Origin: Owenia fusiformis
Taxonomy: Eukaryota > Annelida > Polychaeta > Sabellida > Oweniidae
Length of the DNA stretch: 64,000 nucleotides
Direction of reading: 5' to 3'
NCBI GenBank assembly: GCA_903813345.2
Contig: CAIIXF020000008.1
Span: 22,058,822-22,122,821 of the forward strand
A program made the position numbers and the translations under genes. The notes under the pieces were generated by a model. It saw nothing but the letters and a program-made list of their open reading frames with translations. It had not been told where the DNA came from and did no database searches. Every line of letters begins with the position of its first letter. The stretch's first letter is position 1. Shown in pieces: positions 3,001 to 35,500 of this stretch.

Positions 3001-3600
3001 ACAAGATTCCCTTTATCCATATAAAGTATACACATGACAATAAAAGAATTAAAGTGCATTGAGATTATACTTCCTATCTGTGAATTTGTCATGGAATTTT
3101 ACATTAACATGTTGCTTTTTAATTCAATTAATGAAATATTCTATATGAATATAATTTATGAATTAATATCTAAAAGCAACAGTCTGTTTTTATTATTTAA
3201 CCTTAAGTTTATTTTTTAGGCTTTTATAGCCCATTTATTTCATTTTCATTTTACGTCATACATAAGTTAACCTTATTAAGTTAATGCTAAAAGAAGTTAT
3301 AGCTCTAAATCTGTAAGCTGAACAGGCAAATGATCAAGAAATGTCAGTAATATGACATGCCTTTTAGATTACATACACATGTATAACATTTCTAATGCCA
3401 ATTATCTTTGTCTGCAAGGCAGTTTGATTTATAGAAAGAAATTCCAAGAGTGGCATCTTGCTTGTAGACTAATACTTATTTCAAAGAAGAAGCCACTCTG
3501 ACTCTGTTACTATCAGTTAAATGTATGTGTAGGCAGGTATTTAGTATTGAATGCCAGATTGGAATATTTTTATTGAAGTTATGATATAGCTATTTGTAAT
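1..3600. other. AT-rich stretch with no recognised gene
   Basis: I find no exon that resembles a known protein and no RNA gene here. The longest open frame, at 634-960 on the + strand, is low in similarity to anything I know and contains stretches that look like degraded repeat, so I do not call it a gene. The composition is typical of the intergenic DNA in the rest of the window. Confidence 0.55.
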
Positions 3601-3639
3601 AAGATAACATAATGCAGTACGATCAGGAAGATACGATGT

Positions 3640-5484
3640 ATTATAGATAGAATAGTAATGTAGATAAGATGTTATTCTACTTATTGCACATTACACTACA
3701 CAAAAAGGAATCACACTATTTAGTAATGTAAATAATATAGTAATATAGATAAGATGTTATACTACTGATTGCACATTACACTACACTAAAAGGAATCACA
3801 CTATTTACTTAAAGTAATGTAAATAATATAGTAACGGTAATATAGATAAGATGTTATACTACTGACTGCACATTACACTTCACAAAAAGGAATCACACTA
3901 TTTACTTAAAGTAATGTAAATAATATAGTAACGGTAATGTAGATAAGATGTTTTACTACTGATTGCACATTACACTACACGAAATGGAATCACACTATTT
4001 ACTTAAAGTAATGTAAATAATATAGTAACGGTAATATAGATAAGATGTTATACTACTGATTGCACATTACACTACACGAAAAGGAATCAGACTATTTACT
4101 TAAAGTAATGTAAATAATATAGTAACGGTAATATAGATAAGATGTTATACTACTGACTGCACATTACACTACACTAAAAGGAATCACACTATTTACTTAA
4201 AGTAATGTAAATAATATAGTAACGGTAATATAGATAAGATGTTATACTACTGACTGCACATTACACTACACAAAAAGGAATCACACTATTTACTTAAAGT
4301 AATGTAAATGATGTAGTAATATAGATAAGATGTTATACTACTGACTGCACATTACACTACACAAAAAGGAATCACACTATTTACTTAAAGTAATGTAAAT
4401 AATATAGTAACGGTAATATAGATAAGATGTTATACTACTGACTGCACATTACACTACACAAAAAGGAATCACACTATTTACTTAAAGTAATGTAAATGAT
4501 GTAGTAATATAGATAAGATGTTATACTACTGACTGCACATTTCACTACACAAAAAGGAATCACACTATTTACTTAAAGTAATGTAAATAATAAAGTAACG
4601 GTAATATAGATAAGATGTTATACTACTGATTGCACATTACACTACACGAAAAGGAATCACACTATTTACTTAAAGTAATGTAAATAATATAGTAACGGTA
4701 ATATAGATAAGATGTTATACTACTGATTGCACATAACACTACACTAAAAGGAATCACACTATTTATTCAAAGTAATGTAAATGATGTAGTAATATAGATA
4801 AGATGTTATACTACTGATTGCACATTACACTACACAAAAAGGAATCACACTATTTACTTAAAGTAATGTAAATAATATAGTAATATAGATAAGATGTTAT
4901 ACTACTGATTGCACATTACACTACACTAAAAGGAATCGTACTATTTATTTAAAGTAATGTAAATGATGTAGTAATATAGATAAGATGTTATACTACTGAT
5001 TGCACATTACACTACACAAAAAGGAATCACACTATTTACTTAAAGTAATGTAAATAATATAGTAACGGTAATATAGATAAGATGTTATACTACTGACTGC
5101 ACATTACACTACACAAAAAGGAATCACACTATTTACTTAAAGTAATGTAAATAATATAGTAACGGTAATGTAGATAAGATGTTTTACTACTGATTGCACA
5201 TTACACTACACAAAAAGGAATCACACTATTTACTTAAAGTAATGTTAATAATATAGTAACGGTAATGTAGATAATATGTTATACTACTGATTGCACATTA
5301 CACTACACAAAAAGGAATCACACTATTTACTTAAAGTAATGTAAATAATATAGTAACGGTAATATAGATAAGATGTTTTACTACTGATTGCACATTACAC
5401 TACACAAAAAGGAATCACACTATTTACTTAAAGTAATGTAAATAATATAGTAACGGTAATGTAGATAAGATGTTATACTACTGC
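3640..5484. repeat. Tandem satellite array, about 20 copies of a 90-98 bp unit
   Basis: The phrase TAGATAAGATGTTATACTAC recurs at regular spacing (for example near 4141, 4238, 4328, 4425 and 4516). Two unit lengths occur. A long form of about 97-98 bp carries an ACGGTAAT segment, and a short form of about 90 bp lacks it and reads GATGTAGTAATATAG instead. The copies are nearly identical, which suggests recent amplification or homogenisation. The unit is AT-rich, with a conserved core GGAATCACACTATTTACTT. No open frame crosses the array. Confidence 0.95.
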
Positions 5485-26500: not shown

Positions 26501-29500
26501 TTTGACCTTTAGTTGACCTTCAGTGACCTTCGAAAGGGTCAAAAAAGTTGATTTTTCAAATTGATTTTTGGATGTAAATTTTGGTCAGCTTAATCACAAA
26601 AGACCTTACTGTGCTCTGACTAAGTAAAATTTTCAAGGTCAAAGGTCATCAAACTAGGTCACACAACTGTGCTATCTAAGTTTGTCAAAGTTCGAGACTA
26701 CAAATCCAAATCAATATTTTTGTTTAAAAGTCAGGATATACATTCCTCTGAAGGTTCCAAACTGTGTGAGCATAGGACCGTGGGTCCTTCATTTTGTGGC
26801 TGCGGTTGGCGTCTGTAACAAATCTTGGCATCTGTATCAAATTTGATTTTAGAATTGACCTTCATTGACCTTCTCAAGGTCCAAAAGGTAATTTTCAACT
26901 TGCTTCAAATTGACCAAACTTTTTTTCAAAATCATCTACATGTACAAGTTATCAGAAGTTCAAATCTGACTATAGATTTGACCTTCAGTGACATTCTCAA
27001 GGTCAAAAATGATTTGACCTTCAATGACCTTCTCATGGTCAAAAAGGCCTCTTTTCAACTTGCTTCAAGTTTACCAATTCTTTTTTTTCAATATCACAAG
27101 TTCTCAGAAGTTCAAATCTGACTTTAGATTTGAGATTTCACCTTCAATGACCTTCTTAGGTTCAAAAAAGGTATTTTTTCAACTTGCTTCAAATTGACCA
27201 ATTCTTTTTCAAAATTATCTACAAGTTCTCAAAAATTCAAATCTGACTTAAGACTGAACTAATAATATCATGAGCAACTAGGTGGTGACATTTTGTCATG
27301 TTAATGCCTTGTATTAGATTTTCCAATTGTCTGTTATTGTAATCTTCAATAGGGAGATTTGTCATAATGTCTGACTAATATTTTATCAATTTTTTAATTT
27401 TACTCATTCATATATTGAATAAAAGTACATGTACCATATATGAACTATGAGTGCAATAAATTACTACTACTACTTTAAGTTGATCTACAGATAAATCCCC
27501 TGCCATTTTATATGCATGAAATGACATTTATTCCTTTTACACTGCACTTGCAGCTCCAATGGCAGGCAAGCTAGTTCCAATGGCCATACAACTTGGTGCC
27601 CCCAGACATCTAGGCTCTACTCAACCAGTTGCTATCACACATCCTAGACCACCACCTGACCCCAACTCCAATGTAGGGGTAGTACATATACAGGCTGAGG
27701 TAGACAAAAAAACAGATGGACTAACTATACAGGTAATCACCTTTGTTTGAGTTTAGAAGGACACATACAACTGTCTTTGAAGCAAAATTTCCCCTAGTCA
27801 GCATTTGTTTTTAATAATAACTATTTTATGTTTTAAATATTCCAGACTCTTCCGCCAGTGGACATTGACAGTGAGCCTCCCACCTGTGAAGATAGTTCAG
27901 TGCAATCAGATCACCCTGCCCAGGCTTTCAACAATTACATAACAGTTAAAGACCAGGTAAGAACAGCTAATATAGGATAAACCTGGTAATTTTTGTAGGA
28001 AACTATTTTTCACTAATGATAATTGAGAATCCTTATTTTTGCAGTAAGTGAAGAGAAAATTGAGTCTCTGAATTAACCCAGAGATTTTTCTGATTCTTGA
28101 ATATCAACAATTTTGAATAAATGATTCTCATAAATTCTAGGTTGATGACTCTCCTATGCCTCGACATGCCAATACAGATATGAACGATGAGGATAGTTTT
28201 GACAATGAGAACTTTGAGGGAGAAGATGAAACTCCAGGAATAACCCTCCCAGGTTATAGGGTCCCCCAGGGGCAGTATAATGGGCCAGAGTTTCCCCCTA
28301 GGGTACATCCACCACCCCCTAGGGAGGTCTGCATGCCTTCCTCAGACATCCTGGCTGCTGATTTAAAGCGTAGAGATATGTTGGAGAACAAGGCAGTTGA
28401 TTGGTAAGTGTCTTATTTGTAAGTTTCCAAAATTTAATGGTGTTAAGGTGTCTTGAATGTATAAGTTGATTAGTAGGTATCTCAAATTTTAGAGTTGATT
28501 GATCCATAGATTTTATGGTTGATTGGCAGGTTGATTGTCTTGTACAATGTCTTGTATTTCACTGTCAACATGAATCACTTGTCACAATGGTCGAAATGTG
28601 TAAAGAGCATATTTTGGCATTGTCTTCATAACAACTGAACAGCACTTGAGGGAGATGAAACTGTTGAAAGATGTGCTGCTGAATTAGTATACCCAGTATG
28701 ATAATTAAAGAAATGCACCAGCAAGATTAAGCAAAAATCACTTTATTTTTCCTAGACATCTTTATTTAACGTAACAATATTGTACAGTGAATGTTTAATA
28801 GTAGCTTGGGTAGGCAGGTGCCTGGTAGCTTGGGTAAGCTGGGGCATGGTAGGCTGGGGCTTGGTAGGCAGGGGCAGGGGCAGTGTAGCTTGCAGTGTCA
28901 CAGACCTTGGCGTAGTCGTTGAAAGCTGTTCCCTTGGGGCATTTGACATGGAGGGGCTTGCAGCAGATACAGGCCTTGCTGGTCTTGCTGTAGGCATCGT
29001 ATTTGTAGTCACATCCACACTGGATGAACCCGTATGGGTTGTAGTTGTCCTTGAAGAGTCCACTGGGGTTGCCGTAGCATTTGCCGTCACATGGGTCTAC
29101 AAGAGAAAATATACCCATATGAGTTATACATGTTTAATCTCTTGAATCCCAGGCTCTAAGATCAGTTGAAACCAGAGAATTTTTCATTTTTGCCAGCTTT
29201 TGACATTTTTCTACAAACCTAAACAACTTTAGATGCTCAACTTAGTAAAATTAGACGGCAGAGAACATTTTTACACATTTTAAAACAATTTTTGTGAAAA
29301 TTGTATAAAAATTGTTCAAATGAGAGCAATTTTAGTGAAAATTTTAGTGACTGATTTTCTTGTCGCTCTGGGTTTAAAGATCATTTCTGAGGTGGCGAGA
29401 AATCTTTGTTGTTTTATTCTAAAGAAATGTGCACCTTTGTTCGGAAAGGTCTTCACTACTAAAGAGTGTTTATAACTTTGACAGAGGTGTTTACTTTAGG

Positions 29501-32500
29501 GAATTGTTCACTACAATTGAAATAATGTTAATTTGGATGAGCATTGTGTATTTATTATGACTTACTGTAGCTGTGGGAGTGGTATGATGGTTTGTAGTCA
29601 CAATGTCCGTAGTCTCCGATCTGTCCCTTGTTGCAGAGATCTCCCTTGCAGAAGTACCACTGGGATCCAGCAACATACTGGCAGCCACTGTAAGAGTTGA
29701 CACCAAGGGGGAGGTTTTCCTCATCAGCACATCCTCTGTAGACAACTGCAATAATAAGAGAGTAGTTGTGAATGTTAGGGTTTTGAATCACAAAAACAGA
29801 GAGGGTGGTAAATTACGGTAGTAGAGAGTTTAGATTTAAGTCTTTTGTAACTTTTTGTGGCTGACTGGAATGTCAGTGATCTTATTGACTGTTTTACATA
29901 ACCTGAAATCATATTCAAAATATTCTACAATCACATTCCAAGATTACATTTATATCAGAAGGTTAGAGTATGTATCTTTGGAAATCTCCCTTGAAATGTT
30001 TTTAAATATTTACTTACGTCCATTTTTGTCTCTACGGATGAAGCACCTTCCAGATTTGCAGGTCCATTTGTCAAGGTTATCAGCATCATCATAGTTAGCT
30101 AGGGCACATCCCTCATACCCAGCTGTGGTGGATCGCTTCCAGTAGTCAGACTGGTAGCTGTAGCCTGATGGGGCATAGTTGCAGTCAAAGCATCGGGCTG
30201 AAAGTAAAACAATACATGGATGAAATATTATGGAGATACTGAAATAAGTTGTATGATTTTAAGTGAGAAAATGTCAATGCTATGGTAATGCAATTATATA
30301 CTGTGAATTAAGCATATTTTATCTATTTGTTTATTTGTATTTTAATATGAATATTAAAGAAAAGATGTTATGAAAAGTCCTCATCCCTCAATCGTCTATG
30401 ATAAAATATCACAAGCCTCAAGAAACCCCATTAACACATTATAAATTGAATGGGAAAATGAGTTAGATATAAGCATGGGCTAGTTGAAAGCCCATGATAT
30501 AAGTTTATTTTAATGCAGCTTTAGTCGTTTCAATTTTTATGATTACATGTATTTGAAAGCTTGTGCACTGAAAACTCAGATATAAAAGTAGTTCTATTAA
30601 TTTAGTTGCCTATTTACATCCATATCCCTCAGCCAGCACTGCAGCAAGTCCTGCTACGAAAACAGCTAAAGTCAGCATGGTTGTTGTGTTGTATGAGAGC
30701 TCAGTGGAACTATGATCCCTTTCAATTCTTCAGCTCCTTTTATACTCATTTGATTCCTGAGTTAGATTAACATATTGTACTGCTGTCACACAATACAGGC
30801 ATAATTAAATGTATTTTGGGGTTCTTTAAGATATGTTTACATGTACGTTAATTACACTACATGTATATGAGTTTTATATAATTGCAACATGTGTTGCATC
30901 CTTGGAATGAACATATTGTATTTCCAGTTCATGTCATATACATGTATGATGCTATTTAGATTACATCCTCAGTCTCTCACAGCTAATGAGATATATCTTA
31001 CAATTTTATGGAATGTCCCTTACTTTCCTCTCTCTTTGACAAATGTGGATAATAACATTTTGCCTTATTTTTGTGTTTCTTCAGTAGATGTGCTTTCAGA
31101 GCAGATGATAAAATTCATACCAAGTCAAAAACATTTTAGGTTAAATAAAATACTAACAATTTTATGAAAACAGATCAAAGGGTTGTTATTATACTGTGTA
31201 TATTAAGTTTTGTTTTTTATTCTCATCAAACTTTATATCTGCCATAGACACTAGACAGTCATGAAGAATTTCAGATCTACAAGTATGGGTCACCTGTGTG
31301 ATTTTCCTATTTATGCTGAAATAGCCTGTTGGCTCAGAATGGGATTAACTGCCTTCTGGCATCTGGGCCAGTGCTCATGTAGCACCCTGTACACAATACA
31401 TGTTACGTGTATTACATGCATTGCATTGCTTAGTCTCTTCTATAGTATATCATGTGTGTTAGATAAAGAGGGACTCTGCTAAATCAGAACACATGTATTA
31501 CATGTTTATTTATTTACAGGATAGAGCAAGAGTTGCTGGCTCGTCTGGTGACAGAGATGTACAATAAACAACCACAGAGGGATGTTGTGAATGATACCAT
31601 AGAAACTGTTGAGTCTGATGACTCTGTTGCTTTTCCAAGTAAAGAAATCATTCCTGGTGAGTATAAGGGGATGGGGATTGGCTTAGACACTGTCTTTAAT
31701 TGATTTGTACAATGTATTAAGAACTCGCTGTATGATAATAGTAGAACCACCACACTATTTTCTCATCTTTTGCAAACAAAACAATATTGTAATTGATAAA
31801 TGGCTATGTTTCAGAGGCAATCGGGCAAGATGGTTTGCAGCTATTCATAAGCGCTGGACAGCCTGTAGACGATGGTTTAGTGAGTTCTCTAGTGGAGGAG
31901 GTACTAAATGAAAAAATACGAACTCTCCTTGGAGAGCGCCAAAATGAGAGGGTTCCTGTTAAACCCATCCAAGTTGAAATTGAGCAAGATCCTGTGAGGC
32001 TGGTGTCTCCAGAACAGGTGAGAATCAGTATTATCAAGTGTTGTCTTTGTTTGTTTGATGAAACACTGAGAAGTAAAATGAATTCTGCAGATATGTTCAT
32101 CAACTTCATCCACTTTTAGTGCTCCTCTGGCGATGTCTTTCTTCAATAAATGTTAAAATCATCATATTGGATAAAAATGATCATGATTGGGTGTAAAGTT
32201 TAATATTTAAATGCTCCTAAGAAGAATATGCATATTTGTGAAACGTTGACATTCTTTGCAGGCTGTTCAATTAGAAACACCTGAAGTTACCCCAAAGTCA
32301 TCCCCCGTCCCTACCCCACACAGACATGTGTCTCCCCCTATAACTCCATCTTTGACACCAGATGGCTCTGTTAGTTGCCAATCTGAGATTGGTCTGGGCA
32401 CAGAACTTATGACAACTATGGAGCAGACACTTCCAGGAGGTACTAATCTAGTATACTTAAAGAGAGAATCAGAGATAGCGAGCAGGCTAAACAAAAAATT

Positions 32501-35500
32501 GTTTCAATTTTAGAATATTTTTGGCTCATGTCATTCCTTGTCATGTCTATTTTCTAAAAATCACAAAAGTGCATACTTTATTCAAGGAAAACGAAAGATT
32601 TTTACAATAATGTATTACTTTTCTATAAGAATGGTTACCATTCTTATTATTTTGGAGAATTTAAACATTTTTCACCCATTTTTGCACTTTGAATCATTCA
32701 TAACTTCACCAATTTATAAAATATTGTGAATCTTTTGGGAGTTACTGTATTTGATATTGTAAGGAATAGATTGGTAGGTCAATTATGTACATTGCATGTA
32801 ATTTTGTCACCCCCTATAGATCTGATTCTGCCTTTAACTTAAAAGGATTTTTATGTCACCACCAGTAGTGGTGACATACTATTATAGTCTCCAACAGTGT
32901 GGACAGTGTTTGATGGTTTGTGTTTTGCCATTTGTGTTTGGCATATGTAACAGCAATATGTGGTTGGCATCTGTAACAAATGGCAGGTGAAATATTTGCA
33001 GTATATAGGATCACCCGTTGCTGGGGACATGTTGTACACATTTGTGTTCTTGTTGGTATTTGGGATGAAAAACATTTAATTATATCTTCCAAAATTGGAT
33101 AAAATATCAAGCACTCAAGGGACCTAAAAATTCTTGTACTCTTAAGTGTGGCACAGTGTAAAATTAATCCTGGCATCAGACTTGTTTTGAAAAAAAACTT
33201 ACCTCGGGAAATGGATAGTTTCCCCATTAATATCTAATGATCAACCCTTATTATCATCGCATTCTTGATTTGCCCTCTTGAATGTACTGTACTACATTTA
33301 TACATCTATATTTCTGTTTTTATAATTATAATTATACTTTTCAGAAGTAAGTATTGTAGCTGAAGAAGAAGAGTCCCTACTTATATCCAGACATGATATC
33401 CTGACCCCTACAATAACACCTCCTCCCCCTGGTCCTAGCCCCCCACAGCCACCCACCCCCACTCCAACACCCTCTCCAACTCTGAGTCCTAGATCCCCCA
33501 CCCCAAGGCCAAAGACACCCCTGAAGGCTAGTACCCCTAGTCCTATCCCATGGGGTGACCCTGACTCCCCCCTTTCAGAGGCCAACCCCCACCATGATAC
33601 CATTGAGGAAGAGCCCCCAACTCCATCAGAAAAAACGTAAGTATACAACTTACTGTAAAACATTTTAATTTCTACTTAAGCGGAATTTCACTAATGTAAG
33701 TAATGGATTCACACATTTTACAATTTACATGTTGCAGATAATTAATTTTCCCATCAATAGGCATCTTCAAGTCAGATACAAGGGGATTCAGAATTTTGGA
33801 AAACCACCATATGAATTTCATGTTTTATGAATCTTTATAGTGACATGCCATAATGATGGGTCAAAATAGAAAATAAATCACAGTGAGCTTTTCAAATATA
33901 TGCGGATGCACTGTACAATGCTACATTTTTTACTTTTTTAGTGAAGAATCTGTGGCTGTCAGTGAGGAACCCATCATTATAGAACAAGAAGAACCTGTCT
34001 CCCCTGAGCCAGTACAACCTCCCACCCCTGTGGTAATGAAACCTGACACCCCTGAACATTCCCCCTCTACCTCGGAAGATTCCCCCATATCTGACACTGA
34101 GGGATTGAGTATATCTGAGGGCCAGTGGCTAGTCAGTCGCAGTGAAGGGCAGGTCCCAGATTTTAAAGGTAAAGTATTTACTATGTGGAAATCTTAATGT
34201 GTCCTGGGGAAAAGATCTTGATGTAAGAAAATGTTTTAACTGTTTTGAGTGAGGTATTTCAGAAATGAAATTTTCAAAAGATATCACAGTGTTCTCTCAT
34301 GGATTTTCTCCTCAAGTGAGTTCAAAATTAGTTTTGTCTAAACTAGGTCAAAGTATGGTAATTTTTATTGCACTTTTATATATTGTGCCGAGATTTTAGG
34401 AGGGTGTAGCGCCTTCTTTCTTCAATGATGGGAAGATCACTACATAGATTCTTGATAGAAAGACATTACACAACAGTATGCTTTTGTTTCAGATTACTCC
34501 AGGCCCCCTGCTGTGAATGTCAGTCAAACCAGCACTCTTGCAGACCTCGATCAGGTATTTGGCATGATGCAAAATAGTGACTAGCCATCATGTTCATGCA
34601 GTTCTCTTTATTAATAATTTATTGCCATATTGTATACTAGTTATCCATATTGAGAGATGAGATTCCACTGGAAATGTACTTGTAAATGTGTGTATTTACC
34701 AGTATCTTTATTTTGTGTTCAATTAAAGGGATTGTGAAATTATGCCCCATCCAGCATTACCATAAAAGAAACAATTTTGGTCGAAATAAATTCTCCAGAA
34801 ATAATGTTTTATACAGAAATGTGGAATAGGCCATCTATTTTTGTAGGATCTGAGTGAGATATCTGCAAGCGAGGGAGAGATCATCCACCATACTGTACCA
34901 GACCCTGTGTTATCTCTACTACATAAGATGAAACAACCCATACACTTTGGTGATGGTTCTACCAGCCCTGGTGAGGTTGGACCATCTCCCGAGGGAGCAG
35001 ACTTGGGAAGACAGGGAGCAAGCCCAGGCAGGCAGAGAGAAGACTTGAGAAGAAAGGGAGCTGGTATCAAACGACAGGAATTGAATGATGAAAATGTAGA
35101 TCAGGATTTGAGAGGATCTTATGAAGATCTAGCACCTCTCCCAAGTGAGTTAATTGAAATAGTCCAAACTTATATTATTATGATGTATTGATGATTATTT
35201 ATTTTTTCTCAATAATGCTGAGATTATATGATTTATCTTGTCGTATAAAGTAATGTTATAAACCACATATTCATGTTTTCCTCATCTCCATCTCCAATCT
35301 TGCTTTAGTCATATGTCACATTTCACAGAATTTGTTGGTTCAATGATTTCAGGTAATGTTATTCAAGTTGTGTCAAGTGAGGACAGAACAATGAAACTGG
35401 GAGATCTAGAGGAAAAGGAGAGAACATTGACAGGTCCTCAACCAAAAACAGAAAATACAGGTAGGACATTAAGAATGTACATGTATGTAGAGTTGTTGGG

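Follow-up and report, generated by a model that had tools for sequence, protein, structure and literature searches.

A family of Owenia fusiformis genes in which a Ly6-like part is joined to a rebuilt CBM14-like domain

What protein is specified by the four exons read on the minus strand between positions 30678 and 28795 of a 64,000-nucleotide stretch of Owenia fusiformis DNA, and does it truly join a Ly6-like part to a CBM14-like domain? The stretch, hereafter the window, covers positions 22,058,822 to 22,122,821 of contig CAIIXF020000008.1 (assembly GCA_903813345.2). An earlier note, made from the letters alone, had proposed a 240-residue frame across four phase-consistent exons at this place. 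This was borne out: the predicted protein has 240 residues, 19 of them cysteines, and the three introns are each GT-AG and each in phase 1. The other features to which the note had drawn attention, a signal peptide-like start, the motif CKGDLCN, CPKGTAFNDYAKVCD and a tail with APAY repeats, are all present. The four-exon gene model is real.

A search of the window protein against its own genome returned 69 exon-level matches. Twenty more stretches were taken, of which 19 could be modelled, making 20 gene models with the window gene; in the remaining stretch (L032) the exon of the CBM14-like domain was found alone. All 20 models have the same order, a Ly6-like part followed by the CBM14-like domain and then by a tail of widely varying length. 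The exon joint between the two domains lies on the same strand in every model and is a phase-1 GT-AG joint, the only type that the models considered. The modelled loci are spread over seven contigs (C1, C5, C7, C8, C9, C10 and C11). Exons 2 and 3 of the window gene have counterparts in all 20 models, and exon 1 was located in 17, none being found in L029, L030 and L031. L029, which has no AG ahead of exon 2 and has lost one cysteine, looks decayed. Intron positions separate the copies into groups, according to whether an intron divides Ly6 exons 2 and 3 or interrupts the CBM14-like domain: the first alone is found in the window gene, L013-L017, L030 and L031, the second alone in L018-L024, and both in L025-L029.

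The constancy of domain order at 20 of 20 loci rules out a chance or mis-joined fusion and makes separate genes for exons 1-3 and exon 4 unlikely. The idea that the Ly6 exons and exon 4 sit on separate transcripts, as two unrelated genes or a chance join, could draw on the presence of Ly6-only relatives elsewhere in the genome; set against the shared strand, order and phase of the joint on seven contigs, and against polyadenylation-type signals that come after exon 4, we consider it highly improbable. Hydropathy places the top 15-residue segment of the window protein at residue 1. Beyond residue 25, no hydrophobic stretch resembling a membrane or glycosylphosphatidylinositol (GPI) anchor was seen in the family models, the highest 15-residue mean being 1.03 (in L029) and that of the window protein 0.45. 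As predicted from sequence, then, the product has a signal peptide-like start, no anchor and a two-domain order.

The identity of the two domains was approached through profiles and structure models. The domain encoded by exon 4 contains nine cysteines between residue 141 and about residue 209. For comparison, a CBM14 profile was built from 16 domains of the same genome, taken from 131 CBM14 matches. In hhalign, the family domain matched this profile with a probability of 96.9% and a score of 47.9. Sixty permutations that kept the cysteine columns scored at most 19.0 and 60 free permutations at most 17.0, and a Ly6 profile set against CBM14 gave a score of 19.4 and a probability of 12.6%. In the profile alignment, C1, C3, C4 and C5 of CBM14 fall on cysteines 147, 167, 193 and 206. 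The AlphaFold model of the window exon 4 had a predicted local distance difference test (pLDDT) value of 67. Its Foldseek search placed CBM14-type structures at ranks 1-9, and in 10 of 26 rows in all, with a best row at E 0.038 and probability 0.94. A re-alignment with VIA, which takes up only Foldseek's own candidates, gave CBM14-type entries in seven of seven rows (Z 2.3-3.6). CBM14 is named in the title of one Foldseek structure (6so0), and Avr4, EHEP, Blo t 12 and Der p 23 are proteins that we take to be CBM14-type. Together, the profile and model comparisons render descent of this domain from CBM14 well supported.

Several results weigh against a plain assignment to CBM14 and, more broadly, against reading this protein as a two-domain matrix component. 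At E below 0.001 the exon 4 model had no Foldseek row among the 26, and all VIA Z values, for the Ly6 and CBM14 parts alike, were under 4. None of the 20 models has the signature cysteines C2 and C6. In known CBM14 domains these two residues form a pair, so one disulfide was seemingly lost whole. An aromatic residue (W, Y or F) two places after C5, common though not universal in the comparison set (13 of 16 CBM14 sequences of this genome), occurs in none of the 20 family members. Since C2, C6 and this aromatic residue are all absent, the domain may not bind chitin. Five extra cysteines (143, 169, 183, 185 and 186) have been added, four of which are present in L029, and the domain total is nine cysteines in 19 of 20 models and eight in L029. 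The call of the earlier note therefore holds for descent, as hhalign and the fold search support it, and must be qualified as to the domain itself, which is a modified one; its suggestion of a chitin anchor can be put forward for the modified domain as a hypothesis.

The same changes invite a comparison with sea-hare EHEP. One might suppose that the family consists of polyphenol- or glycan-binding proteins of defence or digestion, whose altered CBM14-like domain recognises something other than chitin. EHEP structures, 8in6 with tannic acid and 8in3, occupied ranks 3 and 4 in the Foldseek search with the exon 4 model, and the loss of the post-C5 aromatic residue in every model would agree with a change of ligand. 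The fold match to EHEP is weak, however (E about 0.1, Z 2.5), and we know of no Ly6 part or Tyr/Pro tail in that protein, which counts against such a function; we regard it as quite unlikely. Elsewhere in the genome, at C11:15407496-15411773, several CBM14 matches share one open frame 3,683 residues long, which predicts a peritrophin-like protein of great length.

The Ly6-like part begins with C23xxC26 and closes with C118-N119. A CxxC start, eight to ten cysteines and a closing CN are the pattern of the Ly6/uPAR family. Nine cysteines are found up to the CN (positions in Table 1) and the tenth, C129, follows it. A cysteine at the place of C129 is also present in the Ly6-only relatives, and on this ground we assign ten cysteines to the Ly6 part and nine to exon 4. 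The earlier note had placed all ten in a region ending in CKGDLCN. The exon set has symmetrical borders, with phase 1 at each of the three introns that flank or divide exons 2 and 3.

Database profiles approach this part of the protein without reaching their cut-offs. The earlier note had expected Pfam to recognise UPAR_LY6 or another three-finger family together with CBM_14; this failed for the window protein, which matched no Pfam family at E up to 10, a result that counts against both domain assignments. Among ten paralogues, CBM_14 appeared in three (best E 1.9), scoring 8.6 and 9.2 bits against a cut-off of 22.1 in two paralogues inspected in detail. The Ly6 family QVR matched end to end in two of the ten (E 0.0094 and 0.025), the best score being 17.4 bits against a cut-off of 27.3. 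DUF7622 was found in three (best 0.0004) and a zinc-finger model in three (best 0.017). None of these matches was above cut-off in six paralogues inspected in detail. The Ly6-only relatives behave similarly: six of their modules, drawn from four related loci, all matched QVR over the full profile (E 0.002-0.015) and DUF7622 (down to 7.1e-06), and four of the six matched DUF753 (down to 0.00025), in each case below cut-off. Searching the genome with QVR gave ten matches at exon level (E no higher than 0.1), and none of these lay at a locus of the Ly6-CBM14 family. The corresponding search with UPAR_LY6 gave no match and is uninformative, because its controls gave none either. One match in the PDB sequences at E 1.2 and two at E 1.3 were taken as chance, and a single NCBIfam match (E 9.6) was discarded.

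For a structural view we used paralogue L021, whose Ly6 domain sits in one exon. Two of its results go against a three-finger fold: the model was poor (pLDDT 47.2), and no three-finger protein appeared among the 50 best Foldseek rows. These rows, mostly antibody entries with template modelling (TM) scores near 0.2, were discarded as noise from a poor model. VIA yielded three-finger proteins in 18 of the 19 rows with Z of at least 2 (Z 2.1-3.4), 5tx4, 6gbi and some others being presumed members of that class. The Ly6 call of the earlier note, and the three-finger prediction that went with it, thus find backing in the sub-threshold QVR matches and the VIA rows and none in the Foldseek list. On sequence patterns and modelling combined, the Ly6 identity of exons 2-3 is moderately supported; it is not proven.

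The Ly6-only relatives are of some interest in their own right. At exon level, L033 and L034 each read as two Ly6 modules, separated in L034 by a Thr-rich stretch, and both carry C-terminal stretches that are rich in His and also contain Ala, Pro and Tyr; their products are candidates for secreted proteins resembling mucins or cements. L035, L036 and further matches at C5:5159245-5284396 form a cluster of Ly6-like genes. Two modules of this cluster match DUF7622 (E 7.1e-06 and 0.00027) together with QVR, below cut-off, which suggests that DUF7622 is a family of Ly6 type.

What might such a protein do? Outside the signal stretch, the ten cysteines of the Ly6 part and the nine of the CBM14-like domain make an odd total of 19, conserved in 19 of 20 models with L029 as the exception; one or more unpaired cysteines, or a disulfide linking two molecules, would be expected from this. 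In 18 of 20 models the tail is rich in tyrosine and proline and also contains Ala, His, Lys or Glu. Tyrosine makes up 12-26% and proline 13-23% of it in 19 models each, and the repeats vary between copies (APAY, YKAPEP, His-rich runs, YPQPKHMPS). Tail length ranges from 6 residues (L017) to 202 (L031). A crosslinking role for the tail is weakened by its not being universal: the six residues of L017 contain no proline, and tyrosine falls to 2% in L030. A TATA-like element stands at the matching aligned place, as judged by eye, in all 17 models having exon 1. Taken alone, a match of this kind is not rare (3 in the window against 1.46 expected).

We give about an even chance to the view that the window gene is one of about 20 related genes for secreted, soluble extracellular-matrix proteins, crosslinked through disulfides and tyrosines. 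Under this proposal, the CBM14-like domain would dock on a matrix polysaccharide, chitin or a related glycan, and the Ly6-like domain would offer a rigid surface to a partner protein or glycan. The flexible tail could be crosslinked through tyrosine, as dityrosine or 3,4-dihydroxyphenylalanine (DOPA), or through contacts between histidine and metal. Bulk secretion by one gland or epithelium, into a tube, chaeta, cuticle or adhesive, would agree with the TATA boxes, the large number of copies and the variety of the repeat tails.

A different function is conceivable for a protein with a ten-cysteine Ly6 part. Several secreted single-domain Ly6 proteins, SLURP-1 among them, are reported to act as ligands or modulators, and the three-finger part could likewise bind a receptor or channel, with the CBM14-like part and the tail retaining the protein near epithelial surfaces or mucus. 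We think this unlikely. The CBM14-like domain is kept in all 20 models and is among the most conserved parts in the group of the window gene (66-69 of 69 residues relative to the window protein), and the repeat-rich Tyr/Pro/His tails and many near-identical copies better suit a bulk material. The matrix role suggested in the earlier note is a plausible hypothesis.

Two known systems offer precedents for a matrix role, namely Retroactive (Rtv) in insect cuticle and peritrophin-A in the tubeworm tube. Rtv is described as a Ly6 protein needed for the chitin cuticle of insects; aromatic loop residues of the Drosophila protein are predicted to contact chitin, and that of Tribolium, of 15 kDa and with a predicted GPI site, promotes trafficking of Knickkopf (PMC3561106). 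As far as that account goes, Rtv is a ten-cysteine three-finger protein tied to a chitin matrix, in which the window protein may resemble it; unlike Rtv, the window protein shows no anchor, and a CBM14-like domain and a tail are added to its Ly6-like part. Peritrophin-A domains are reported to be enriched, along with others, in the tube proteome of a tubeworm (PMC8476170). The likeness to Ly6 proteins of the Quiver/Sleepless type (QVR, PF17064) consists of the sub-threshold matches noted above, whereas the window protein itself is unmatched, lacks a membrane anchor and is fused to other parts. With CBM14/peritrophin-A proteins (Avr4, the CBM14 of chitotriosidase, EHEP, Blo t 12, Der p 23) the family shows similarity of profile and of modelled fold, and it keeps the four signature cysteines C1, C3, C4 and C5; the lost and added residues and the joining to a Ly6 part set it apart.

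The Ly6/uPAR (LU) domain is known from foreign surroundings. To our knowledge, none of GPIHBP1, SP-10 and the TGF-beta receptor ectodomains is a CBM14 fusion. In all of these the LU domain is reported to stand in a non-homologous protein environment, and LU exon sets to be mostly phase 1 (PMC6600238); in both respects, as that source presents them, they resemble the window family. According to the same review, of 2019, the LU domain is unlikely to be a bona fide mobile module (PMC6600238). The present family, which links phase-1 exons of the Ly6 type with a CBM14-like exon of the same phase, argues as a counter-example to this view. In a literature search covering mostly titles and the beginnings of abstracts, no paper was recognised as describing a Ly6-CBM14 protein, and the combination is probably undescribed. 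Both parts come from known superfamilies; the novelty lies in their combination and in the rebuilt CBM14 domain.

How are the copies kept alike? Relative to the window gene, codons are identical at 212 of 233 unchanged residues in L013, 209 of 227 in L014 and 185 of 221 in L015, three copies that lie on other contigs; their exons are thus nearly identical even at silent sites. Codon usage was rejected as the cause of this identity, as the usage of the family predicts 0.43 against the 0.80-0.92 observed among the window gene and L013-L015. Introns and flanks were judged against the best of 60 shuffles. By this measure, none of the three comparisons shows similarity above the best shuffle in introns 1 and 2 or in the 300 bases past the stop. 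For intron 3 the score matches the best shuffle with L013, lies below it with L014 and exceeds it with L015 (29 versus 23). The 300 bases upstream are clearly similar. Codon identity climbs from exon 1 (11 of 17 in L013, 13 of 18 in L014) to the domain in exon 4 (68 of 69 in both), and shows no such slope in L015 (14 of 17 and 58 of 67). In the tandem pair L018 and L019 the introns can be aligned, scoring 45, 199 and 177 where shuffles reach at most 26, 29 and 18. Those of L018 and L022 cannot be aligned, although the exons of the two pairs are about equally alike (208 of 239 identical codons for L018 and L019, 188 of 226 for L018 and L022). Exceptions among dispersed copies are a weak intron similarity in L013-L015 and a moderate one in L025-L027. 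These patterns suggest exon-limited gene conversion among dispersed copies; selection on silent sites may be an alternative. A simple route through complementary DNA (cDNA) templates is spoken against by the unlike 3' ends of the copies. Trees of the Ly6 codons and of the CBM14-like codons agree on the main subfamilies, leave many nodes weakly supported and place L030 differently; they neither prove nor exclude gene conversion.

The window gene is nested in an intron of the TALPID3 gene (Table 1), whose joined flanking exons match Pfam TALPID3 (PF15324) at E 4e-33. Within the TALPID3 region, a repetitive stretch at 26832-27314 recurs in introns of L014 and in the 3' flank of L020. Window positions 32457-32837 share 87% identity over 389 alignment columns with L028 positions 3456-3840 (reverse-complement coordinates, in an intron); this common stretch is probably a dispersed repeat.

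Table 1. Features of the Ly6-CBM14 gene and its host intron in the window
Feature	Position	Strand	Remarks
TATA box TATAAAAGG	30736..30744	-	about 60 bases 5' of the start codon
Coding exon 1	30618..30678	-	start codon and signal peptide-like hydrophobic stretch MLTLAVFVAGLAAVLA; GT donor, phase 1
Coding exon 2	30018..30197	-	Ly6-like first half, cysteines 23, 26, 51, 67, 72; AG/GT borders, phase 1-1
Coding exon 3	29566..29745	-	Ly6-like second half, cysteines 86, 102, 113, 118 (DLCN), 129; AG/GT borders, phase 1-1
Coding exon 4	28795..29096	-	CBM14-like domain, Tyr/Pro/Ala tail and stop codon; AG acceptor
Tyr/Pro/Ala-rich tail	28798..28899	-	34 residues past the last cysteine; APAY/PSY repeats
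Two AATAAA polyadenylation-type signals	28761-28766, 28742-28747	-	shortly 3' of the stop codon
Intron of the TALPID3 gene	28404..31519	+	contains the window gene, nested antisense; splice sites read from the sequence

One could envision, tentatively, a history in which a Ly6 exon set was shuffled beside a CBM14 domain and gave rise to some 20 matrix or cement proteins. The CBM14 domain would have been rebuilt for covalent crosslinking in a chitin composite, with one disulfide lost and five cysteines added, and conversion confined to exons would keep the copies alike. If the shuffling part of this scenario is true, the Ly6/LU domain would be able to act as a true mobile module. If the matrix role is true, the family would provide a defined, taggable component for studying the hardening of a chitin-bearing structure, and also a set of dispersed genes on which exon-limited gene conversion could be put to the test.

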